This document shows, one piece after another, positions 5,662-26,880 of a stretch of 26,952 nt of DNA. The notes under the pieces are model-generated. The model was given only the letters and a program-made list of their open reading frames with translations. It was not told where the DNA came from and searched no databases. The stretch is taken from positions 1 to 26,952 of IMG/VR virus record IMGVR_UViG_3300035170_000021; one strand, 5' to 3'. Positions within the stretch are counted from its first letter, which is position 1. Each line of letters opens with the position of its first letter. A program made the position numbers and the translations under genes. The DNA is from a virus.

Positions 5662-5690
5662 TTGACAACGTAGGCGGGAGCGTTTACGTT
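5662..5690 (+). promoter_or_regulatory. Promoter of regulator operon A with AACGTA inverted repeat
   Basis: TTGACA (5662-5667), 17-base spacer, TACGTT (5685-5690). AACGTA (5667-5672) and TACGTT (5685-5690) are exact inverted copies, so a dimeric repressor could cover both promoter elements. The start codon at 5718 lies 27 bases past the -10 and has its own ribosome site. The minus-strand RlpA-like gene begins 10 bases upstream of the -35, so the same site may control both directions. Confidence 0.65.
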
Positions 5691-5717
5691 ATCAGCACAC
5701 CACCGAAGGAGAACGAG

Positions 5718-5951
5718 ATGGCAGTCACCAAGCAGCAGCTCGCGGAGCGCAAGGACCGCAAGGTCAAGACGTTCGTTCGCTGGTCGGGTCAGCCGGCCGA
5801 CTCGAGCCTCGAGCGACCGCTCTACGTCGTCAAGGATCTCTTCGATCGCGAGGGGTTTGCCGACTACATCGACGCTGGACGGGTTGCGATCGGCCCCGAT
5901 GACATCGGCATCGCGTGGGGCGTCAGCCTCGACGACATCTCGCTGGACTGA
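5718..5951 (+). CDS. Small protein, first gene of regulator operon A
   Basis: A 77-residue protein beginning MAVTKQQLAERKDRKVKTF, with GAAGGAG-N7-ATG as ribosome site; a longer TTG frame upstream overlaps the promoter and is rejected. The N-terminus is basic and helical. The C-terminal half is acidic (DAGRVAIGPDDIGIAWGVSL then DDISLD). No family is recognised. It is one of few plus-strand genes, sits behind a strong promoter and is followed after three bases by a helix-turn-helix gene, so it may be a regulator or an effector controlled by that protein. Confidence 0.7.
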   Translation: MAVTKQQLAERKDRKVKTFVRWSGQPADSSLERPLYVVKDLFDREGFADYIDAGRVAIGPDDIGIAWGVSLDDISLD

Positions 5952-5954
5952 CCG

Positions 5955-6125
5955 ATGACCGTCACCGAAGCCGCTGCCCGATTGGGGGTGGCGGCTTCCA
6001 CGTTGCGTGTCCAGATCGGCAAGGGAAAGCTCCGCAGCACGAAGCGCGGACGGGATCACTGGATCACCGAGGCCGAGGTCGAACGCTACCGGACGGAGTC
6101 GAAGGGCAAGCATCAGCCTTCGTAG
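5955..6125 (+). CDS. Small MerR/excisionase-type HTH protein (paralogue A)
   Basis: A 56-residue protein: MTVTEAAARLGVAASTLRVQ begins a classic HTH_17/excisionase-like fold, with the recognition helix at ASTLRVQIGKGKL, then the wing KRGRDHWIT and the closing helix EAEVERYRTE. It binds DNA and most likely regulates its own operon. It is paralogous to the genes at 10282-10446 and 23820-23978; by my ungapped count it matches the 10282 protein at 29 of the first 50 positions. Its 3' end overlaps the convergent methyltransferase gene by 13 bases, with no terminator seen between them. Confidence 0.8.
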   Translation: MTVTEAAARLGVAASTLRVQIGKGKLRSTKRGRDHWITEAEVERYRTESKGKHQPS

Positions 6126-7033
6126 TCCTCCATCAGCCGTCGCCCGATGTACTCGACGACTTGCGGAACGACCGCGTTGCCGAGGGACCTAAGTCGGTCC
6201 ACCCGAGCGGGAACCCCATGAGCCACTCGACCCACGTCGGGTTCAGTTGACCAGTTGCCAGCATCGATTCCCGCGTGGAGACTCGTCCAGCCTCCCGCAG
6301 GATCACCGTCGAGAGGCTCTCCTCCACACCCTTCATGCCCTTCGTCCGATCCTGCCAGCCTTGACGGGCCTCGGATGCCTGCGGCGTAGGCCACGATCCA
6401 GACCCGGTAACGGAGGTGCGGGGCACCAACGGCCGCCGCGGGAATGCTCTCCCACTCCGCGTCATACCCGAGGGTGGCCAGGTCTCCGAGAACGGCTCCC
6501 ATCCCGCCTCCCACAAGGAGGCCTGGGACATTCTCCACGAGGACGAAGCGGGGTCGTAGCTCGCGAATGGCTCGGGCGAACTCGGGCCATAGCCAACGAT
6601 CGTCATCCATTCCCCCGCGCTTGCCTGCGACGGAGAACGGCTGGCAAGGAAAGCCGCCGGCGAGGAGATCGACGGGCTCGACGCCAGACCAGTCCACCAG
6701 TCCGATGTCTCCATATCGGGGAACATCAGGCCAGTGCTTGGCGAGGACTCGCTGGCAGAAGGGGTCCCATTCGACCTGGAAGCGGCAGTCCCATCCGGCT
6801 CGCTCAAGGCCGAGGTTCGCCTCGGTCAAGCGCCGTTCAGCGGCCCGCGTCATCCGACTGCCATACGGCGGCACCTTGCCGATGGCGTAGTTGAGTGCGT
6901 TCGCTGCGTCCTCCACCCGTGCCCGCGCCTCCTGTTCGGCGCGGAGGGCGGCGAGGAGATCGCGGACGTCGCAACTGCGCTTGAAGCAGTAGGCATGTCG
7001 CGCCTCGATCGCTGCCAGCTCGTCGGGCGTCAT
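6113..7033 (-). CDS. C5-cytosine methyltransferase lacking motif I, fused to a foreign N-terminus
   Basis: A 306-residue protein with an ATGA start at 7033. Residues 75-306 are a DNA (cytosine-5) methyltransferase: LERAGWDCRFQVEWDPFCQ, motif IV GGFPCQPFSVAGKRGG with catalytic Cys130, motif VI ENVPGLL (167-173), motif VIII GAPHLRYRVWIV, a short target-recognition stretch, motif IX VDRLRSLGN and motif X AVVPQVVEYIG. The SAM-binding motif I (F-x-G-x-G), which should precede LERAGW, is absent. Residues 1-73 (MTPDELAAIEARHAY..., LLAALRAEQEARARVE) look instead like a separate small phage helical protein. The gene appears to be an in-frame deletion fusion and is probably catalytically dead. Residues about 76-299 are also covered by a second open frame. 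Confidence 0.8.
   Translation of the reverse strand: MTPDELAAIEARHAYCFKRSCDVRDLLAALRAEQEARARVEDAANALNYAIGKVPPYGSRMTRAAERRLTEANLGLERAGWDCRFQVEWDPFCQRVLAKHWPDVPRYGDIGLVDWSGVEPVDLLAGGFPCQPFSVAGKRGGMDDDRWLWPEFARAIRELRPRFVLVENVPGLLVGGGMGAVLGDLATLGYDAEWESIPAAAVGAPHLRYRVWIVAYAAGIRGPSRLAGSDEGHEGCGGEPLDGDPAGGWTSLHAGIDAGNWSTEPDVGRVAHGVPARVDRLRSLGNAVVPQVVEYIGRRLMEDYEG
6133..6807 (-). CDS. Overprinted frame resembling a widespread phage protein family
   Basis: A 224-codon frame on the same strand as the methyltransferase but in a different phase, lying wholly inside it. It is not random-looking: SPAAFLASRSPSQASAGE, FASYDPASSSWRMSQASL, FSETWPPSGMTRSG, SGSWPTPQASE and LNPTWVEWLMGFPLGWTDL match, from memory, the ordered motifs of a common family of phage hypothetical proteins. 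Either that family arises by overprinting of methyltransferase genes, or it is a conserved shadow of them. No convincing ribosome site was found for its start. Listed because the motif order is striking; expression is uncertain. Confidence 0.3.
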   Translation of the reverse strand: MSEPDGTAASRSNGTPSASESSPSTGLMFPDMETSDWWTGLASSPSISSPAAFLASRSPSQASAGEWMTIVGYGPSSPEPFASYDPASSSWRMSQASLWEAGWEPFSETWPPSGMTRSGRAFPRRPLVPRTSVTGSGSWPTPQASEARQGWQDRTKGMKGVEESLSTVILREAGRVSTRESMLATGQLNPTWVEWLMGFPLGWTDLGPSATRSFRKSSSTSGDG

Positions 7034-7398
7034 CGCTGGCTGGCTGCCCATAGTGCCCTTCCTGCGAGCGTGATGGCTCGCCCGTCGTCAACCATGTCCG
7101 TCGTCACTCGGATGACGAGCCATCCCCCGATGGCGGCCTCGTCGTACTTCAGGCAGTCGGCCTCGAAGCCGCTGCCGCGGAGATGCCGCCCGTTCGACCA
7201 GCTGCCACCTTCGATCTCCACGGCCACCTTCCACTGCGGCCAGGCGAAGTCGAAGCGCCACTTGCGGCTTGCGTCGAAGCGGTGTTCCCGCTGCCATTCG
7301 GGGTAGCGCAGCTGGCGTAGGTGCGTCTCGAACGCTCGTTCGCCGTCGGAGCCCTGCTCCTGCATGAAGCCTGCCGGCGTCAGCGGGTCGACGTTCAC
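7030..7398 (-). CDS. Small PD-(D/E)XK nuclease
   Basis: A 122-residue protein from a GTG at 7398 (GTGA overlap with the preceding nuclease gene). The core reads WRFDFAWPQWKVAVEIEGG: Asp50 and the E61-x-E63 pair fit a PD-(D/E)XK active site, followed by SNGRHLRGSGFEADCLKYDE and GWLVIRVTTDMV, the usual second half of DUF559/Vsr-like and phage resolvase-like nucleases. A conserved Glu near residue 20 (GERAFETHL) is also typical. It probably cleaves branched or mismatched DNA. Its neighbours, a RecB/Cas4-like nuclease and a methyltransferase, agree with a role in DNA metabolism. Confidence 0.75.
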   Translation of the reverse strand: MNVDPLTPAGFMQEQGSDGERAFETHLRQLRYPEWQREHRFDASRKWRFDFAWPQWKVAVEIEGGSWSNGRHLRGSGFEADCLKYDEAAIGGWLVIRVTTDMVDDGRAITLAGRALWAASQR

Positions 7399-8237
7399 GC
7401 GTGCCCCTTCCGGCTGCCGAGGGCTGCTGCCATCACGTCATCATGCTCCAGCGTCCACGTCGCGAAGGCCAGCAGGCCGCGGAAGGCCGTCCACGCTTCC
7501 CGGTCACCCCGGACGCTGACGAACTCCCATCCGTCGTCGGCGAGATGGAGGATCGCCATGCCCGACACCTGGCGCAGCAGCCGGGTGCGGATGTCGTCCA
7601 CGACGTCGTCGGTGCCCGCGAACTCGGCCATCGTGTAGGCCATCAGCTGGAGGACATGCTCGGAGTAGATGCCGTTGCCCGTCTTCAGGTCGACCGTCCA
7701 GAGGCTGCCGTCCGGGAACCGGCCGATGAAGTCGACCGTTCCCGCGTAGCCCGCGGTCAGGTTGAACACCTGGAACTCGGTGGCGAGGATGTCGCAGCCG
7801 CTGGCGTCGAGCCAATGGCGGAACTGCCTGAGCCTCGGCTGTACGGCAGGCTCCGCGTCCTCGATTGCGAAGCCTGCCGCAGCTGCATCATGGACCGCCG
7901 TGCCGAGCTTCGCTGCCGCATCGCGCTCCTCGGTGGCCGCTGCCCGCAACCACTTGCGCGTCTCGGCGATCCGGTTCTTCTCGGTGACGCGCTCCCGCTT
8001 CCGTGCCTCGCGGGTCATCATCGCCGTCATCGTCTCGAACTCGTCGGTCGCACGCTGGACCACCTTCGAGACTTGATGCGTCGCCAGCTTGTGGGGCATG
8101 CCGGCCATCCGCCGGACGGTCGTCACGGACGGCAGCATCCGGCCCTGCCAGGCGTAGAAGCGCATCCCCGTCTCGGGATCGGTCCTCGCGTTCGGCGGAC
8201 CGGAGTCGGTGCCGATGGTGAATGCCGGTGCGGTCAT
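7395..8237 (-). CDS. RecB/Cas4-like PD-(D/E)XK exonuclease
   Basis: A 280-residue protein; the ATG at 8237 follows GAGG at seven bases. The active-site layout is clear: GTAVHD with His116, an upstream-strand Glu154 in ATEFQV, GTVDFIG with Asp169, TVDLKTG with Asp183 and Lys185, and the QLMAY motif (Gln197, Tyr201). This is the H-D-(D/E)xK-QxxxY signature of RecB, AddB and Cas4-family nucleases. Phage members process DNA ends for recombination or replication. The preceding gene encodes an ssDNA-binding-like protein, so the two probably form an exonuclease/annealing or protection pair. Confidence 0.8.
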   Translation of the reverse strand: MTAPAFTIGTDSGPPNARTDPETGMRFYAWQGRMLPSVTTVRRMAGMPHKLATHQVSKVVQRATDEFETMTAMMTREARKRERVTEKNRIAETRKWLRAAATEERDAAAKLGTAVHDAAAAGFAIEDAEPAVQPRLRQFRHWLDASGCDILATEFQVFNLTAGYAGTVDFIGRFPDGSLWTVDLKTGNGIYSEHVLQLMAYTMAEFAGTDDVVDDIRTRLLRQVSGMAILHLADDGWEFVSVRGDREAWTAFRGLLAFATWTLEHDDVMAAALGSRKGHA

Positions 8238-8259
8238 GTAGTGCCTCGGGGGGAGAGCA

Positions 8260-8291
8260 GGCGGGACGACGAGCCCAAGTGTCGTCCCGCC
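8260..8291 (-). promoter_or_regulatory. GC-rich hairpin between two recombination genes
   Basis: GGCGGGACGAC (8260-8270) and GTCGTCCCGCC (8281-8291) are perfect inverted copies with a 10-base loop. The hairpin lies in the 70-base gap after the ssDNA-binding-like gene and before the nuclease start at 8237. No U-run follows on the transcribed strand, so a standard intrinsic terminator is unlikely. It may stabilise or process the upstream mRNA and lower nuclease expression relative to the binding protein. Confidence 0.6.
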
Positions 8292-8307
8292 CGTCTCGCG
8301 GGAAGTG

Positions 8308-8823
8308 CTACAAGGGCAGCTGGTCGACTTCCTCGTCGACCTGGTCGCGGATGGGCCGCGAGGCCGGTGCGACCGGGGCCGGCGAGCCCTTCGGCGTGAC
8401 CGCCGCTCCCGTGGACTCGGCAACCTTCTTGCTCAGGCCGCTGATCGGCATGGCCGAGAAGCTGACGATGTCGCTGTACCCGGACTCCTGGCGCTGGACG
8501 GTCCCGAGGACCATGCGGCCGATGAGGTCCTTGAAGTCCAGCTTATCGCCGTACTTCGGGGCTCTGCCGCCGAGCAGGGCGGTGAGCAGCGGGAACATCT
8601 TCGACCGCGGCCCCGTCTTCGTGCTGGTCCCGCAGCGAAGCTCGGTGCCGTCGTCCATGTGAAAGACCCAGTCCCAGAAGTAGACATCCTCATCCTTGAC
8701 GGGGTCATGCCATTTGCGCGGTACATCGGGTTGGTCGGGATCGCCCACGATCGCCGACAGCTGGAGCGGATAGACGCCGTCCTCGATGTTCGGACCGGAT
8801 GCGCTGATCTCGATGCTTGGCAT
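8308..8823 (-). CDS. ssDNA-binding-like recombination protein
   Basis: A 171-residue protein. The N-terminal 110 residues look like an OB-fold phage protein of the DUF669/single-strand-binding type: an opening MPSIEIS...EDGVYPLQLSAI, YFWDWVFHMDDGTELRC, TSTKTGPRSKMFPLLTALLG and FKDLIGRMVLGTVQ. A Pro/Ala/Ser linker (about 140-160) leads to an acidic tail, DQVDEEVDQLPL, as in SSBs that recruit partner enzymes. It precedes a RecB/Cas4-like nuclease, a pairing common in phages. The family assignment is by pattern resemblance, so binding of ssDNA is inferred. Confidence 0.6.
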   Translation of the reverse strand: MPSIEISASGPNIEDGVYPLQLSAIVGDPDQPDVPRKWHDPVKDEDVYFWDWVFHMDDGTELRCGTSTKTGPRSKMFPLLTALLGGRAPKYGDKLDFKDLIGRMVLGTVQRQESGYSDIVSFSAMPISGLSKKVAESTGAAVTPKGSPAPVAPASRPIRDQVDEEVDQLPL

Positions 8824-10192: not shown

Positions 10193-10285
10193 CTACCACT
10201 TCACGATCATCGCGAAGAAGATGAGCCCGCCGACGATCAGCCAGAAGCCTTCGGCCAGGACCCGCCGCCACGGCTCGTTGCTCAT
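10193..10285 (-). CDS. 30-residue membrane peptide
   Basis: ATG at 10285 in an ATGA overlap with the HTH gene; TAG at 10193-10195. MSNEPWRRVLAEGFWLIVGG is followed by LIFFAMIVKW, one transmembrane segment with a basic N-terminal side. The gene-coupled start and hydrophobic composition support it. Function unknown. Confidence 0.55.
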   Translation of the reverse strand: MSNEPWRRVLAEGFWLIVGGLIFFAMIVKW

Positions 10286-10446
10286 GACGCAGCCCTCAGG
10301 CTCTCGCGGCGATACCGCTCGACCTCGGAATAGTCGACGAACCAGTCCCGGCCGCGCTTCTCGGCCCGCAGCTTGCCCTTGCGAATCTGATGGCGAAGCG
10401 TGGATGGTGCGAGCCCGAGGAGTCGGGCGACGTCGGCGAGTGGCAT
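10282..10446 (-). CDS. Small MerR/excisionase-type HTH protein (paralogue B)
   Basis: A 54-residue protein: MPLADVARLLGLAPSTLRHQ, then IRKGKLRAEKRGRDWFVDYS and EVERYRRESLRAAS. The layout is the HTH_17/excisionase fold, with recognition helix APSTLRHQI and wing KRGRDWFVD. Start and stop both sit in ATGA overlaps, so it is translationally coupled to the 61-residue gene before it. Paralogous to the proteins at 5955-6125 and 23820-23978, aligning without gaps over 50 residues. As second gene behind the promoter at 10665-10638 it may regulate the whole early-type operon running down to 6113. Confidence 0.8.
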   Translation of the reverse strand: MPLADVARLLGLAPSTLRHQIRKGKLRAEKRGRDWFVDYSEVERYRRESLRAAS

Positions 10447-10631
10447 CAGCGGTTGCAGAACGTATGGCTGCCACTGCCGCAGTTCCAGCAGGCTCGACCC
10501 TCGATGATGAGGTCGATCGTTCGCTGCGAATGGCCGCGGGCAACGAATGCGTCAGTCAGGTTCTTCCGGCGCATGATCGCCCAGAAGTCCTTCGCGGCCT
10601 TGTCGACGCGGGCGTTCGGCGTTGTGTTCAT
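10446..10631 (-). CDS. 61-residue protein, first gene of operon B
   Basis: ATG at 10631, with no ribosome-binding site; the promoter places transcription start on this ATG. MNTTPNARVDKAAKDFWAIM is followed by RRKNLTDAFVARGHSQRTID and LIIEGRACWNCGSGSHTFC. Residues 10-45 look like a small helical DNA-binding-like domain, and the C-terminal C-x2-C...H-x2-C pattern could bind zinc. No family named. It opens the operon that also encodes HTH paralogue B and the recombination genes. Confidence 0.65.
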   Translation of the reverse strand: MNTTPNARVDKAAKDFWAIMRRKNLTDAFVARGHSQRTIDLIIEGRACWNCGSGSHTFCNR

Positions 10632-10665
10632 ACACGCACTCTACACCGTGCGCGTACGTTGTCAA
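10632..10665 (-). promoter_or_regulatory. Leaderless promoter of operon B
   Basis: On the minus strand TTGACA (10665-10660), a 16-base spacer and TAGAGT (10643-10638). With the usual six-base gap the transcript starts at 10631, the A of the ATG. The first 11 bases, TTGACAACGTA, are identical to the operon A promoter at 5662-5672. A GCGCAC/GTGCGT near-inverted repeat overlaps the spacer and -10. It lies directly after the last tail-spike gene and so separates the structural operon from the early-type one. Confidence 0.65.
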
Positions 10666-21465: not shown

Positions 21466-23124
21466 TTACGAGGCGACGTTGTACGCCGTGAACGCGGCCG
21501 GATACCACGGGGCCGGCCAGAGCATGCCGACCAGGGCGACGTCCCGACCCGCGTGGGCCGCGTTGTCGACCTGGAGGGTGTACGTGCCGTCCTCGGCCCA
21601 CGCGAAGCCGGACGAAGGCCCGACGAGCGCGTACGCGCCGTGTGCGTCGAGGATCGGGACGTGGACCGCCCGCAGCCCCGAGATGTTGCCCGAGACACCG
21701 CCCGCGACAGTCGCGTCAAGCTGGATGTTCGAGTAGAGCGGCTGGTTCGTGGTCGTCGCCTTCGCGTCGATGAACTCGCCGACGGCCTTCGTCGACAGCC
21801 AGAGCGTGTCGGGCCCACGCCGGATGGCGTCGAACGCGGCGACGTAGGCGTCACCCAGCTGGAGGTCGGCCGGGTCCATCGGGCTCGCGTTGCCGATGCC
21901 GCCCATCGCGTCGAGCAGGGCCGTGATCGCCTCGTCTTCCGAGACGCGGGCGTACTGCTCGGCCAGGAGTTCGACCCACAGGGAGAGGAACTCGGGGCTT
22001 GACCGCTTGATCAGCTGGATCGAGAGGTCACCGGCCCCGGCGATGCTCACCATGTCGAACTCGGTCGTGCCGATGAGCGTCTTGGTGCTGGCGACTTCCT
22101 GCTTCTCGGTGTTCTGGACACCGACCTCAGGCCGCTGGTTGATCACCGGCACGATGAGCTTCGTGCCGCTCGAAGGAGTCGGCAGCCGGCGGGTCGTCGT
22201 CAGGAACGGACGGCTCGGGTCGATGACGCCGATGAGTTCCGTCAGGTAGGCAGGCGGGACCATGCCGACGTTGTCCGTCGTGATGACGTCGTCGAGCGTC
22301 CGCATCTGCGCGTCCGGGATGCGCTCGCCGGTCATCAGCCGGGTTGCCAGCTTCAGCCATTCGCCCTTGCTGATGCTGACCTTCGGGTCCTCGGATGCTC
22401 CGGGGATCACGATGTCGGCTCGGGCGTCCTCCTCCAGTCGCTCGAACCGGGCCGCGAACTTCTCTTCGAGGCTCGCGAGGGCAGTCGCTTCCCTCTCGGC
22501 ACTCGCCGTGATCGCCGACAGGATCGCTGCCGCATCGACGTTGACGCCCGCCACGGGCTCGACGTTCTCGCCCATGTGGGCCTCTCCTTCTGGTAGCGAG
22601 CGCACTGCAAGGACCGTCGCCTGCTCGCCGTAGGCGGGTCTGTAGGTGAGGGCTGCCCCGGTGGCAGCTGCCTTCGTGATGCGGTCGACCGACCGCCCGC
22701 CGCGGCGGACCTTCTGCACGGTGTTCTTCGCGGCGACCGTCTCGACGGAGACTCCCCGGATCACCCGGTCTTCGGCCAGGGCGATGATCTCGTCACCGGC
22801 CTGCGTGCGGGCAACCTTGAACGTGGCGTATGCCCCATCAGGCTGCTCCCAGATGCGGTTCGAACGCCCCTGGGGCCGACGTGTCGGCACGATGTCGCCG
22901 TTCTGGCCCACGCCCATCGCGACGTCGTGCTCGAGCCCTTGCAGGAGCAGGGAGTCGGGCGACATGTGTTCGAAGGAGCCCGGTGCGTACTCCTCCAGGC
23001 CCGATCGCGTGCTGATCGTCTTGTCGAACGGGACCAGCCGTACGTCGATCTCGCGCTTCTGAGCGGATCGGACGGTAACGACGTCCTCGTCTTCGAACTC
23101 GATCTGCTCTGGATCGTCGCTCAT
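21466..23124 (-). CDS. Prohead protease-major capsid fusion protein
   Basis: A 552-residue protein; the ATG at 23124 has GGAGG eight bases upstream, better than in-frame starts at 23139 or GTG 23205. Residues 20-170 are the HK97 U35 prohead protease: REIDVRLVPFDKTISTRSG, LLLQGLEHDVAMG with likely catalytic His66, and VIRGVSVETVA with Ser126. Residues about 197-236 (AILSAITASAEREATALASL, EEKFAARFERLEE) form a coiled-coil scaffold/delta region. Residues about 245-552 are the HK97-fold capsid (LKLATRLMTGERIPDAQ, VPPAYLTELIGVIDPSRPFL, SPEFLSLWVELLAEQYARVS, WLSTKAVGEFIDAKAT, AHAGRDVALVGMLWPAP). Fused forms are known in phages. An internal ribosome site could yield capsid without protease. Confidence 0.9.
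   Translation of the reverse strand: MSDDPEQIEFEDEDVVTVRSAQKREIDVRLVPFDKTISTRSGLEEYAPGSFEHMSPDSLLLQGLEHDVAMGVGQNGDIVPTRRPQGRSNRIWEQPDGAYATFKVARTQAGDEIIALAEDRVIRGVSVETVAAKNTVQKVRRGGRSVDRITKAAATGAALTYRPAYGEQATVLAVRSLPEGEAHMGENVEPVAGVNVDAAAILSAITASAEREATALASLEEKFAARFERLEEDARADIVIPGASEDPKVSISKGEWLKLATRLMTGERIPDAQMRTLDDVITTDNVGMVPPAYLTELIGVIDPSRPFLTTTRRLPTPSSGTKLIVPVINQRPEVGVQNTEKQEVASTKTLIGTTEFDMVSIAGAGDLSIQLIKRSSPEFLSLWVELLAEQYARVSEDEAITALLDAMGGIGNASPMDPADLQLGDAYVAAFDAIRRGPDTLWLSTKAVGEFIDAKATTTNQPLYSNIQLDATVAGGVSGNISGLRAVHVPILDAHGAYALVGPSSGFAWAEDGTYTLQVDNAAHAGRDVALVGMLWPAPWYPAAFTAYNVAS
22573..22589 (-). promoter_or_regulatory. Internal ribosome-binding site and start within the capsid fusion
   Basis: On the minus strand AAGGAG (22589-22584) is followed after eight bases by an in-frame ATG (22575-22573), codon 184 of the fusion, at the exact junction of protease and scaffold domains. 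Initiation here would give a 369-residue scaffold-capsid protein (22575-21466). This would solve the need for many capsid subunits per protease, as lambda does with nested C/Nu3. Confidence 0.6.
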
Positions 23125-23233
23125 GAAGAGAGCCTCCATCAACCCTGCCTTCGCGGACTGTTCCGCAGGGGTGGAGGCCGACGAACCGGCTGGCGACGCG
23201 CGCACGATGCCGGTGGATATGCGATTAACGCGG

Positions 23234-23263
23234 ATTATTGGCGCGGCCGGTGTCAGATGTCAA
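23234..23263 (-). promoter_or_regulatory. Promoter upstream of the capsid operon
   Basis: Minus-strand TTGACA (23263-23258), 18-base spacer, AATAAT (23239-23234). The predicted start near 23227 leaves a leader of about 100 bases before the capsid ATG at 23124. It is divergent from the plus-strand promoter at 23293 and allows capsid and tail genes to be transcribed independently of terminase and portal. Confidence 0.6.
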
Positions 23264-23264
23264 T

Positions 23265-23278
23265 ATCACCCGGGTGAT
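23265..23278. promoter_or_regulatory. Palindromic operator candidate
   Basis: ATCACCCGGGTGAT is a perfect 14-bp palindrome. It sits between the two divergent -35 elements (23258-23263 minus, 23293-23298 plus), one base from the capsid -35. A dimeric repressor bound here could control both promoters. Confidence 0.6.
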
Positions 23279-23279
23279 C

Positions 23280-23321
23280 TCTACGCTAGACCTTGACATC
23301 CTCTCTACTGTGGCGTAGATT
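23280..23321 (+). promoter_or_regulatory. Leaderless promoter of regulator operon C
   Basis: TTGACA (23293-23298), 17-base spacer, TAGATT (23316-23321). Six bases later is the ATG at 23328, so transcription should begin on the start codon. TCTACGC (23280-23286) and GCGTAGA (23313-23319) are exact inverted copies flanking the -35 and overlapping the -10, another possible operator. Confidence 0.65.
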
Positions 23322-23327
23322 AGTCGC

Positions 23328-23501
23328 ATGGGAACCCCCACCAACCCCACCAACGGGACGAAGGTCCCGGAGCGCTGCGCTCATCGCAGCGACCTCGGCC
23401 TCGGCTGCGCTCGCAGCCAGGGCCACGCGGGAGCCCATTGGCTCACCGCCACCCCGGAGGCCGCACGGGCGGACCTCCACCGGCAGGGCATCCGGGCCTA
23501 G
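23328..23501 (+). CDS. 57-residue zinc-binding-like protein, first gene of operon C
   Basis: ATG at 23328, without a ribosome site and apparently leaderless. MGTPTNPTNGTKVPERCAHR is followed by SDLGLGCARSQGHAGAHW, i.e. C-x-H ... C-x5-GH-x2-AHW. This Cys/His arrangement is common in short proteins of actinobacteria and their phages and probably binds zinc. The frame ends at TAG 23499-23501. Function unknown; it lies on the strand opposite to the head genes. Confidence 0.65.
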   Translation: MGTPTNPTNGTKVPERCAHRSDLGLGCARSQGHAGAHWLTATPEAARADLHRQGIRA

Positions 23502-23532
23502 CCCGGAGCCCTCTCGGCAAGGAGAACGCGCG

Positions 23533-23823
23533 ATGACGACCAAGAACGAACGCGGACTGCACATCGACCCGGAGACGGGCGCAACGGTTTACACCCCGAA
23601 GGAGCGAACGATGACGACGAGTGACTTCATCATCATCGCGCAGGAGATGTCAGCAGCCTTCCGCAAGTACGCCGAGTCGGCTGACAACCTGACCGCGATG
23701 GAGGAGTTCCCAGGACAGTTCGCTAACGCGATCTCCGGTCAGCGACAGATGGCCCACGAGTGTTCGCTGATCGCCCGGAAGGCTCGTGAGGCAGCTGGCC
23801 TGCCAGCCCCGGTATTCGAGTGA
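23533..23823 (+). CDS. 96-residue helical protein of operon C
   Basis: ATG at 23533 with AAGGAG upstream. A second in-frame ATG at 23611 also has a strong site (GAAGGAG-N6), so two forms may be made: 96 residues or 70 residues starting MTTSDFIIIAQEMSAAFRKY. Both starts read MTT after a near-identical leader, which suggests a small duplication. The body (EFPGQFANAISGQRQMAHEC, SLIARKAREAAGLP) is helical and not recognised. It is followed by the HTH gene in a GTGA overlap. Confidence 0.65.
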   Translation: MTTKNERGLHIDPETGATVYTPKERTMTTSDFIIIAQEMSAAFRKYAESADNLTAMEEFPGQFANAISGQRQMAHECSLIARKAREAAGLPAPVFE

Positions 23824-23978
23824 CGCTGAAGGAAGCCGCAGCGGTCCTGGGCCTGACCCCGGACACGCTGCGGCAGCAGATCAAGAACGGAGCCCTCCGG
23901 GCCCGCAAGTTCGGGCGGGACTGGATGGTCGACCCGGCAGAGGTCGACCGGTACGCGAAGGAGAACCGCCGCCCTTAG
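23820..23978 (+). CDS. Small MerR/excisionase-type HTH protein (paralogue C)
   Basis: A 52-residue protein from a GTG in a GTGA overlap. VTLKEAAAVLGLTPDTLRQQ, then IKNGALRARKFGRDWMVDPA and EVDRYAKENRRP: HTH_17/excisionase fold with recognition helix TPDTLRQQI and wing KFGRDWMVD. It aligns without gaps to the proteins at 5955-6125 and 10282-10446. It probably regulates the adjacent divergent promoters. Its 3' end overlaps the convergent portal gene by four bases. Confidence 0.8.
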   Translation: MTLKEAAAVLGLTPDTLRQQIKNGALRARKFGRDWMVDPAEVDRYAKENRRP

Positions 23979-25453
23979 GCCGTGGCCTCTGTCAACCCGA
24001 CGTGGCGCTTCTCGCGCGGGCAGTACGTCCACGAGCCGTCGAGCAGCTTGTTGCAGCGGCGCAGAACCTTGTTGACGAGGATCGTCTCATGGCAGCGCGT
24101 CTCGGCGGACCGGGCCTGCACCGGCAGGATGCTGACCTGGGCCTGTGGCGGGCTGAACGGGGCCGGTGCGTTGTCGGTGTCGCCGGGGGCGAGCCCCTCG
24201 AACGCCTGCGCCTGCTCGGGAGTCAGGATGCCGGCGCCGATCCCGACGGCATAGGCGTCGTAGCGGTCCTTCGTGTCGGCCAGCGTCAGGGCATCGGTGT
24301 CGAACCGGGCCACGAAGGCTCGCGGGATCATGTCCGACATCGCCTCCTCGATGGGCCGAAGATAGTTCGGCCTCAGGCAGCGGCGCAGGAAGTCGTCGTA
24401 GATGGTCGACAGGTTCTGGTACGTCAGGCTGCTCCCGCGCTGGACGTATTCGAGCAGCTGGCCGGGGATGTTGAACATCTGCGCCGTCGTGCCGGCCTGG
24501 TGGAGTCGGGCATCGAGCATCTGCGCCCCGCTGGCGCTGAACGTCGGGAAGTCGATGCTCTCGACGCGGGGGTCGACGACCCGCGGCCGGTTGTTGCCCT
24601 TCGCAGACCAGGCATCGGCGAACCGCTCGGCCTCCGTCTCGGCGGTCGGATCGCTCGGGTCGTCGTCGAGAATCTCGGCCGAGTGGATGATCGGTGCCGT
24701 GGTCGCGCCGCCATCGGCGTAGAAGTTGGCAGCCCAGTTCTCGGCCTCCACCGAGACGCTGACGGAGGCACCGCAAAGCTGCAACGGGCCGATGCCGCGG
24801 AGGCTGCTGCCATCTCGGATGTACGTCAGCTGGCGCATGTCCTCGTTCGGCATCGTCACCTGGCGAGCGACCCCGATGCCGCTCCAGACGATCTTCGGAC
24901 GAAGGAGGTTCTGGATGTTCTGCGTCACCATGATCTGCTCGGGCGGGATGTTCAGGATCGCGATGGCGTTGCCGTCGGCGTCACGCTTCGCGATCCACCA
25001 CCACGCCTCGCCGCGGGTGGCGAGGTTGTACGCCGTGTCGCGATAGAACTCGCCCGGTGAGCGGAACGGGTTGGGATCGGGACGGATGATCACGCGAGGG
25101 CGGTCCTCGGGCAGGACTTCGACCTCGTTCTTCAGGGCTCGCATGCTCATGCTGCCGACCGTATGGCTGATGAGCGTCACGGCCCCGAGGATGGACGGCA
25201 CGCCGAGGGCATCTCGGAGGCCGGCCGGATGCCAGGGGCGGTCGGCGACACCCTGCAACGAGAGGATTTGCGCGTCGAGGGCCGGGAAGTCGTGGAAGGG
25301 GTCGATCGCCCGCGTCTCGACGCGCTCGGCAGCCTCCCCCGCGAGCCGGTGGGCCCGCTCCTCCATCGCGTTGCGCGTTCGGAGGTCCCAGAGGGTCGGC
25401 TTGCGCTCCTCCATCGGCCGGAAGCCGCGCTTGATCTCGTCGAAGAAGCTCAT
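23975..25453 (-). CDS. HK97-type portal protein with zinc-finger-like tail
   Basis: A 492-residue protein overlapping the terminase stop by four bases. Typical portal segments are ALGVPSILGAVTLISHTVGS, RPDPNPFRSPGEFYRDTAYN, LATRGEAWWWIAKRDADGNA, GIGPLQLCGASVSVSVEAEN, FNIPGQLLEYVQRGSSLTYQ and LRPIEEAMSDMIPRAFVARF. It forms the dodecameric DNA gate. The last 40 residues are unusual: Cys454, Cys467, Cys478 and His484 (RRCNKLLDGSWTYCPREKRH) resemble a Com-type zinc finger. The antisense operon C lies between it and the capsid gene. Confidence 0.9.
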   Translation of the reverse strand: MSFFDEIKRGFRPMEERKPTLWDLRTRNAMEERAHRLAGEAAERVETRAIDPFHDFPALDAQILSLQGVADRPWHPAGLRDALGVPSILGAVTLISHTVGSMSMRALKNEVEVLPEDRPRVIIRPDPNPFRSPGEFYRDTAYNLATRGEAWWWIAKRDADGNAIAILNIPPEQIMVTQNIQNLLRPKIVWSGIGVARQVTMPNEDMRQLTYIRDGSSLRGIGPLQLCGASVSVSVEAENWAANFYADGGATTAPIIHSAEILDDDPSDPTAETEAERFADAWSAKGNNRPRVVDPRVESIDFPTFSASGAQMLDARLHQAGTTAQMFNIPGQLLEYVQRGSSLTYQNLSTIYDDFLRRCLRPNYLRPIEEAMSDMIPRAFVARFDTDALTLADTKDRYDAYAVGIGAGILTPEQAQAFEGLAPGDTDNAPAPFSPPQAQVSILPVQARSAETRCHETILVNKVLRRCNKLLDGSWTYCPREKRHVGLTEATA

Positions 25454-26880
25454 CGGACCGCCAACCTTCCCTCAGACTGAGGCAGTGATGCCATGTATAC
25501 CGCACGGATCGCGGCCAGTGCGGCCGGGATCGGGTGATCGTCCTTCGACCTGACGGCCTCGTACGTCCCGTCGTGGTCCTGCTTGCGGACCGTCCACGTC
25601 AGGTCATCGGTCACGGCGTCGCAGTTCGACCACACGAGCCCGCCGGCAGCGACGAGCCTGGCGAACTCGGCACTCGCGGCCTTCGCCCTGCCGCCGCCGA
25701 AAGAGACGCCCTTCTCCTTCCTGACGTACTTCATCAGCTGCGAGTCCTCGACCTCGTATCCGACCTTCGCGTTGTGGCGCAGGGCGAGCAGCTTCAGCAG
25801 TTCGCCGACGGTGTCGGTGTCGACGGGATCGCCGACGACGTTCTCGACCAGCTGGAGGGCGATCCTGCGGTCGGCACGGCGCCAGGCGATCGCGATGGCT
25901 GCCCGTCGGCCGTCGGGATCGAGGGAGACGGCGAGGCTCGGCCGGACCGGCTGGCCGGTGGCACCGCGGGCCTCCACCCACGCCACGTCGGCGACGAGCC
26001 GGTCGGAGGTCGTCCGCACCCACCGGCAGAGATGCTCCGTCTCGAAGATCGCGAGCTTGCCGCGGGCCTTGTACGTCTGGAAGTTGAACTCCAGGTTCTC
26101 CATCGCCGTCGGATCGTGGCCGATGGCCGGGTTCGCCTCCAGCCAGCCCTCGACGTCGTCGACCGCGCGGTCGGGAGCGGCACTCCATTCGAGGTAGGCG
26201 AGGGAGGGATCGACGCCGGCACTCGCCCGAATGGAGTTCAGGACGACCGACGTGTCCTCCCCGGCGTTGCTCAGGTAGACCATCTGCGGACGCCTCGACG
26301 CCTGGAGCGTCGGCGTGGCCGCGGCGATGAAGTCGTCGTCCTCCATCTCGCGTAGCTCGTCGATGATCACGAGGTCACGGCTCGGGCCTCGGGCACCGCC
26401 ACGGCTCGGGGCGACGATGGAGTAGATGCCGCCGTTCGCGAGCCTGATCTCCTCGGTGCCGTTGGCGAACCGCGGCTTCACGATCCGCCCGCCACGGCGG
26501 GCAAGCTGACCCGAGTACTTGCCCTCGATGATCTCGGCGACCTGGCCGAAGATTTCGCGGGGCAGGACGCGGTCCTGCGCCGTGTGCATGATCCGGTCGC
26601 CGGCCAGCAGCCTGCTGACGATCAGCGGCACCAGCAGGGTCGTCTTGCCGGACTGCCGAGCGACCACGATCGCGACGTGGCGATATAGCCAGGAGTCGCC
26701 GCGGCCCTTCGCCGTCAGGTAGCGGGCTGCCGTCTTCTGCCAGGGATAGAGGTCGATGCCGACGTCGTGGGCCGTCTGCACGAACTGGTCGATCTCGGTT
26801 CTCGCCGGGGTTGGCGGGGCCAGCCGGGGTAGCTCCCGGCCGACTTGCAGCTTCTGGCTATTCGCTGCGAATACCGCCAT
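25450..26880 (-). CDS. terL: Terminase large subunit
   Basis: A 476-residue protein. ATPase domain: adenine-binding LYPWQK (44-49), Walker A ARQSGKTT (74-81), Walker B LVIIDE (160-165) with catalytic Glu165, coupling motif YLSNAGE (182-188). Nuclease domain: VSLDPDG with Asp301, a middle acidic patch in KVGYEVEDSQL, and SKDDHPIPAALAAIRAVY with Asp447/448. It packages DNA into proheads and cuts it. Length and motifs are complete. The ATG at 26880 has only a weak AGGG site upstream, so translation may be coupled to the gene beyond the window. Confidence 0.92.
   Translation of the reverse strand: MAVFAANSQKLQVGRELPRLAPPTPARTEIDQFVQTAHDVGIDLYPWQKTAARYLTAKGRGDSWLYRHVAIVVARQSGKTTLLVPLIVSRLLAGDRIMHTAQDRVLPREIFGQVAEIIEGKYSGQLARRGGRIVKPRFANGTEEIRLANGGIYSIVAPSRGGARGPSRDLVIIDELREMEDDDFIAAATPTLQASRRPQMVYLSNAGEDTSVVLNSIRASAGVDPSLAYLEWSAAPDRAVDDVEGWLEANPAIGHDPTAMENLEFNFQTYKARGKLAIFETEHLCRWVRTTSDRLVADVAWVEARGATGQPVRPSLAVSLDPDGRRAAIAIAWRRADRRIALQLVENVVGDPVDTDTVGELLKLLALRHNAKVGYEVEDSQLMKYVRKEKGVSFGGGRAKAASAEFARLVAAGGLVWSNCDAVTDDLTWTVRKQDHDGTYEAVRSKDDHPIPAALAAIRAVYMASLPQSEGRLAVR

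Follow-up and report, generated by a model that had tools for sequence, protein, structure and literature searches.

An antisense gene block between portal and capsid is one of a family of apparently self-regulated, portable cassettes of uncultured soil phages and adjoins a conserved capsid leader hairpin

Why should three small genes lie antisense inside a phage head operon, between portal and capsid? The question is raised by the IMG/VR virus record IMGVR_UViG_3300035170_000021, whose 26,952 bases (GC 0.67) were analysed as a whole and are called here the window; the record may be a fragment. The long genes of the window, encoding the terminase, the portal and a protease-capsid fusion, are held on the minus strand, and the three plus-strand open reading frames (ORFs) announced by the original prediction are indeed present between portal and protease-capsid (Table 1); they are referred to as the island. 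The answer that we favour, with a probability of about two in three, is that the island is an autonomous, self-regulated accessory cassette, the capsid being served by a separate promoter and by a leader that hides its Shine-Dalgarno (SD) sequence.

The gene layout first needs two corrections. The portal gene and the last island gene, which encodes a helix-turn-helix (HTH) protein, share four bases at their stop codons, and the capsid gene likely starts at the ATG at 23124, preceded by GGAGG at 23137-23133, rather than at the GTG at 23205. Elsewhere, the non-structural arm of the window holds a DNA methyltransferase gene (phrog_363, 6113-7051) and an exonuclease gene (phrog_298, 7395-8423).

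Table 1. Positions of the features discussed, numbered from the first base of the window
Feature	Position	Strand	Evidence or remark
Terminase large subunit gene	25450..26880	-	
Portal gene	23975..25453	-	PF04860
Protease-major capsid fusion gene	21466..23124	-	phrog_2263
Cargo gene 1, 57 aa, Cys/His-containing	23328..23501	+	no family match
Cargo gene 2, 96 aa	23533..23823	+	no relative found; alternative start ATG at 23611
HTH_17 DNA-binding protein gene, 52 aa	23820..23978	+	PF12728; start overlaps stop of gene 2 (GTGA)
Tail-to-tail stop overlap, portal (TAA, minus) and HTH (TAG, plus)	23975..23978	both	also in L035
Cassette promoter TTGACA-17-TAGATT	23293..23321	+	promoter scan; ATG 6 nt after -10
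Capsid promoter TTGACA-18-AATAAT	23234..23263	-	promoter scan; counterparts in relatives
Perfect palindrome ATCACCCGGGTGAT between the two -35 boxes	23265..23278		length class not rarer than chance
Operator-like site CTACGCTAG upstream of cassette -35	23281..23289	+	sole copy in window; 0.07 expected
Operator-like inverted repeat CTACTGTGGCGTAG in promoter spacer	23305..23318	+	sole copy at no more than 1 mismatch; 1.73 expected
Capsid leader hairpin	23121..23180	-	SD GGAGG (23137-23133) in 3' arm
HTH cassette A (HTH 5955-6125)	5662..6125	+	antisense between minus-strand genes
HTH cassette B (HTH 10282-10446)	10282..10665	-	codirectional with neighbours

The predicted arrangement of promoters at the island is borne out by our scans. 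A promoter of its own stands upstream of gene 1, back to back with a minus-strand capsid promoter; both are sigma-70-type, their -35 boxes are 29 bp apart, and both are recovered in a 1.5 kb scan for which shuffled sequences give an expectation of 0.1. Four sites of at least 9/12 occur in the whole window, namely these two divergent promoters and one before each of the other HTH cassettes. As first-order random sequence contains 3.9 such sites on average, their total is at chance level, and it is their placement, not their number, that carries the evidence. The palindrome was likewise discarded as evidence, three of that length being found over the window and 4.1 expected. The island ATG lies 6 nt past the -10 box and a leaderless mRNA is thus predicted; leaderless mRNAs are common in actinobacteria. 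The claim that no terminator separates portal and island also stands, as the 1.5 kb scanned gave one weak match only, inside the HTH gene, for 0.6 expected. Because no terminator was found there, transcription from the portal gene may continue through the island in antisense. No convincing terminator of the cassette itself was detected in the window either; by eye, a terminator-like hairpin follows the cassette of L109, one of the related contigs.

The capsid side of this divergent arrangement was examined in 23 capsid leaders, the near-duplicates L009, L014, L015 and L044 being left out. A promoter-like site of at least 8/12 (at least 9 in 16 cases) is present within 160 nt upstream in 22 of them, L050 having none over this distance. 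The mean score is 8.9 vs 1.9 in shuffled sequence, the absence of a site counting as zero. Shuffles score as high as the real site in 20% of cases for L039, 12% for L040 and 30% for L046. A short AAYYGAA-like motif follows the -10 box in most relatives (in the window at 23233-23215, as TTAATCGCATA). As the capsid promoter is kept in relatives devoid of the island, the island did not create the separate transcription of the capsid gene.

Downstream of this promoter, the leader measures about 100 nt in all; its hairpin, located just before the capsid start codon, usually begins 49-61 nt after the -10 box, and was not recognised in L047 or L052. In all 15 leaders folded singly, the SD falls in the 3' arm and is paired (z from -1.47 to -6.52). 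The hairpin of the window is modestly stable (z of -1.73 for 58 nt), its whole 118-nt leader being unremarkable (z of -0.89). When 11 leaders are aligned, 95.7% of the cells are paired and 6 of the 15 pairs are changed on both sides, including 5 of the 6 pairs of the upper stem; the covariation score is reached by none of 500 shuffles, and sliding the partners cuts pairing to 42-54%. This estimate is conservative, since MAFFT misplaces L042 and L045. A model-fitted alignment of 18 distinct matches, which is biased towards structure, has 7 of 15 pairs changed on both sides. With the covariance model, the capsid leader is the one strong match in the window, next to a weak one at the same place on the opposite strand; the model also recovers the L109 leader, which was absent from the build. 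A comparison of 36 gene starts in the window gives the capsid SD a pairing probability of 0.98, the highest of the nine starts with an SD of at least 5/6; the sole pairing value above it comes from the leaderless island gene, whose "SD" is promoter DNA. No Rfam family was matched, by the window up to E = 1 or by L004, L035, L045 and L049 at gathering. A second upstream hairpin (P1) is visible by eye in the leader. No report of this leader or of the cassette was found in our searches, which covered open-licence papers, and the word capsid does not occur in the accessible portion of PMC2864571.

Covariation shows a hairpin structure in the capsid leader, with the SD paired in a conserved helix, as in SD-sequestering leaders. 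We infer that translation of the capsid mRNA would be restrained as long as no factor opens the hairpin; as the promoter stands before the entire hairpin, the SD would have to be released in trans or co-translationally. The GC-rich stem and the T-rich stretch that follows it in the listed leaders could alternatively denote a transcription attenuator, or a 5' stem stabilising the mRNA, rather than a translational block. The T-runs are however short, the terminator scan did not call the hairpin, and the SD pairing itself is the constant element across stems of differing sequence; we therefore leave this alternative a modest, minority share of the probability.

The variability of the place in which the island is inserted was assessed on 28 junction records, comprising the window, 26 contigs with both genes and L109, in which the capsid side is represented by the leader; four near-identical pairs are among them, so that 24 remain. 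The second contig copies L033, L034, L036 and L048 were left out, as was L037, whose stretch holds no portal. Between the portal and capsid matches (end of the former to start of the latter), the distance varies from 151 to 4,210 bp across relatives, several of which have gaps of about 150-210 bp without any antisense promoter. Four of the 28 junctions (the window, L035, L040 with two, and L109) contain an antisense TTGACA promoter. The closest counterpart is L035, whose cassette ends in an HTH protein identical to that of the window at 35 of 51 residues (69%), has the same TTAG/CTAA overlap with the stop of the portal gene, and is driven by a promoter again divergent from the capsid promoter; the portals of L035 and the window are only 43% identical. 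Cassette promoters and small ORFs are also present in L040 and L109, HTH_17 being absent from both whole records. Other gaps contain nothing, a LuxR/GerE-type HTH gene (L004, L011, L015 and L016; GerE E-value of 2e-9 for L004) or, by eye, glycosyltransferase-like (L006, L049) or tail-fibre-like genes. The LuxR/GerE-type gene is codirectional (L004 2792-3130, L011 1787-2131, L015 2886-3230, L016 2914-3255) and overlaps the capsid promoter at its 3' end. In L109 and L040, repetitive collagen-like or tail-fibre-like genes stand alongside the antisense cassettes.

In the isolated phages inspected, portal and capsid are adjacent, in agreement with the statement of the original prediction that head genes are normally contiguous: they overlap by 4 nt in Snuffles and are 56 nt apart in Corgi, with no gene between, and in DmpstrDiver the portal overlaps with the capsid or protease. 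The statement that this is an unusual place for a regulator, on the other hand, fails within the virus group itself, in which the junction is a hot spot and antisense cassettes recur. This group is far from isolated phages, the best listed portal match having 26% identity and the capsid 31% identity over 30% of its length. A search for capsid relatives or prophages in a bacterial genome collection confirmed none of 143 pattern matches. We read the island as a moron-type accessory cassette that occupies a hot spot of variable insertions.

The proximity of the divergent -35 boxes, which are 29, 19 and 29 bp apart in the window, L035 and L040, respectively, suggests another possibility. The HTH protein, bound to a shared operator, could repress the cassette and activate or repress the capsid promoter, so that head synthesis would depend on the cassette state; CTACGCTAG and the perfect palindrome do lie between the two boxes in the window. 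Yet 24 of the 28 junctions are without an antisense cassette promoter while the capsid promoter persists in relatives, and the divergent promoters of L040 and L109 occur in records without HTH_17. A shared-operator switch appears unlikely to us on these grounds, and it is in this form that capsid expression might possibly be linked to a switch via the island, as originally proposed. More doubtful still is an extended version, in which the HTH protein would bind between the back-to-back promoters and time the capsid promoter, and a phage product, for instance the capsid protein or a cassette cargo, would open the SD hairpin. Transcription and translation would then both be gated, at a two-way control point recurring across related viruses and with an antisense, leaderless cassette that would be instantly translatable.

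Autonomy of the cassette, as in the reading that we favour, is also suggested by its recurrence. The record has two further HTH copies, at 5955 (+) and 10446 (-), which are 52% and 57% identical to the island HTH. The PF12728 (HTH_17) scores of the three are 45.2 bits for the island and 35.2 and 39.1 bits for the others, above the curated cut-off of 27. The same plan, i.e. an operator-like promoter, a usually leaderless start, small unrelated cargo genes and a terminal HTH gene, is found three times in the window and again in other soil viruses. Of 40 other viral records searched over their full length, 12 contain the HTH protein, most of these having originally been retrieved through the HTH itself. 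Fourteen distinct HTH loci were retained: the three of the window, L018, L019, L020, L021, L022, L023, L025, L035, L064, L115 and L116; L024, nearly the same as L023, was not counted apart, and the weaker HTH_17 matches L026-L032 were omitted. Thirteen of these loci have an upstream TTGACA and TAnnnT spaced by 16-18, the exception being L115, with no such promoter nearby. The ATG follows the -10 by 6 nt in nine of the 13 and by 7 nt in one, and small ORFs separate promoter and HTH gene in most of them, L023 being almost without cargo. A stop-start overlap of cargo and HTH genes appears in the ORF lists of six (the window island, L018, L019, L020, L021 and L022). By ORF inspection, the cassettes of L019 and L023/L024 are antisense beside a head-tail-connector-like gene. 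A DnaA-box-like GTGGATAACTT, located 14 nt before several cassette promoters, was rejected as a hallmark of the family, as it is common in unrelated AT-rich phages; in 58 viral stretches (L053-L109), many of them AT-rich and unrelated, it precedes a TTGACA promoter by 13-15 nt.

What could make such cassettes self-regulated is suggested by the sites around their promoters. Eleven copies of the octamer TACGCTAG lie within about 65 bp around 15 cassette promoters (12 loci), against none in the remaining ~117 kb of these loci, a contrast that is descriptive, the octamer having been chosen from the promoters in which it was counted. It is absent from cassettes A and B of the window and from L021, L035, L040 and L109, and one copy lies outside any cassette, in the gap of L049. 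Repeats like CTACTGTGGCGTAG occur in related cassettes; the L020 cassette has a direct repeat of TTACGCTAG, and L025 and the window spacer have inverted repeats. The simplest reading of these sites is that each HTH protein would bind its own promoter, and autoregulation of the cassette may be envisaged on that basis.

Small overlapping genes under a single promoter also recall toxin-antitoxin or defence systems, in which the HTH protein would be the autoregulating, antitoxin-like partner of the cargo, and PADLOC finds a weak match of the HTH protein to mad1 (E-value of 5e-5). A generic HTH is nevertheless sufficient to explain this match, the cargo differs between cassettes, and none of the cargo proteins scanned, from the window and other cassettes, matches a Pfam or PADLOC model. 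Such a function is accordingly quite improbable.

A role of the HTH protein as an excisionase, or recombination directionality factor, instead of a regulator was also considered. Its AlphaFold model (mean pLDDT of 89) is best matched by Foldseek to the Pukovnik Xis (TM 0.80) and RdfS (TM 0.74), with BldC at about 0.70-0.74, all E-values being above 0.01; its best PDB sequence match is Gp37 (entry 4j2n), and its best PHROG matches include excisionases. However, this fold is common to transcription regulators such as BldC and MerR proteins, and there are three divergent copies in this one genome, each ending its own promoter-driven cassette. Neither an integrase nor a known lysogeny repressor was matched among the window ORFs scanned, in a record that may be incomplete. 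An excisionase role is thus very improbable. In the bacterial genome collection, close HTH relatives amount to three weak MAG matches only.

The coding status of the island was evaluated with a codon model trained on six long window genes, by which all six frames of each ORF were scored. In each of the three genes, the annotated frame outscores the other five, which are all negative; its per-codon scores are +0.07, +0.26 and +0.40 for genes 1, 2 and 3. Their GC contents (0.75, 0.61 and 0.70, vs 0.68 for capsid and portal) do not clearly indicate a distinct composition. Although gene 1 scores weakly, and no relative was found for it or, in viral contigs, for gene 2, it is scarcely credible that the ORFs are spurious or a decayed insertion, the HTH gene being kept in other viruses and the best frame being on the plus strand. 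Decay is rejected in view of the antisense L035 counterpart, which is intact and in the same place, and not degraded as the original prediction had allowed for relatives.

Taken together, our results are compatible with the following scheme. A moron-type cassette would have entered a variable junction immediately behind the portal gene, in antisense orientation. A leaderless mRNA made from the sigma-70-type promoter of the cassette would encode two small cargo proteins and the 52-aa HTH_17 protein, translation of the latter being probably coupled to gene 2 through the stop-start overlap. The HTH protein would most likely bind TACGCTAG-type sites around its own -35 and -10 boxes and hold the cassette at a set level. 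The capsid would be served apart, by its conserved promoter and a leader of about 100 nt with a hairpin over the SD, and its synthesis would probably be translation-limited, with or without an adjacent cassette, as long as the hairpin stays closed. What appeared as an odd antisense block in a phage head operon is then one of an antisense cassette family, and its study has brought to light a conserved RNA leader of the gene for the major capsid protein. If this leader is a true translational gate, it could offer a direct handle on the pacing of the most abundant protein of a tailed DNA phage, which is usually ascribed to promoter timing alone.

Phage morons are accessory genes that carry a promoter of their own and are lodged between phage genes that would otherwise be neighbours. 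The island resembles them by its autonomous promoter, its variable cargo and its insertion at a junction that is contiguous in isolated phages and in relatives devoid of it. It differs from them by its own HTH gene and operator-like promoter, by the lack of a detected terminator in the window, and by belonging to a recurrent family of cassettes, several per genome and often antisense. We propose that uncultured soil phages share a family of such portable cassettes, apparently self-regulated, of which the island is a member.

The HTH protein shares its fold and short length with the small winged HTH excisionases Pukovnik Xis and RdfS but is encoded without an integrase nearby, in several copies, each on a promoter cassette. 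BldC of Streptomyces is described, in the accessible part of the source, as a MerR-like winged HTH protein without effector domain that binds direct repeats at promoters, its family binding head-to-tail at 9-bp direct repeats (PMC5859096). The cassette HTH similarly has no effector domain, and the TTACGCTAG repeat of L020 is a direct one; L025 and the window spacer differ by their inverted repeats, and the likeness to BldC is one of modelled fold only.

As for the capsid leader, ribosome-binding sites are sequestered in the leaders of the T4 genes e, soc, 49 and I-TevI, and the late promoter of gene e starts downstream of the 5' arm, inside the inhibitory helix, which frees the site, according to the available text (PMC3014915). 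Both have an SD within an RNA helix before a phage gene; in contrast to gene e, the sole capsid promoter found is upstream, so that every capsid transcript would include the whole hairpin. Finally, the SAS/ESAS of Cluster K mycobacteriophages are, in the portion of the article at hand, sequence repeats at translation starts, with 11-19 copies per genome and, for about half of the SAS, inverted repeats upstream (PMC3203893). The capsid leader is, like them, a conserved phage element at a translation start, but it is one structure per genome, in which the sequence changes and the pairing is kept.
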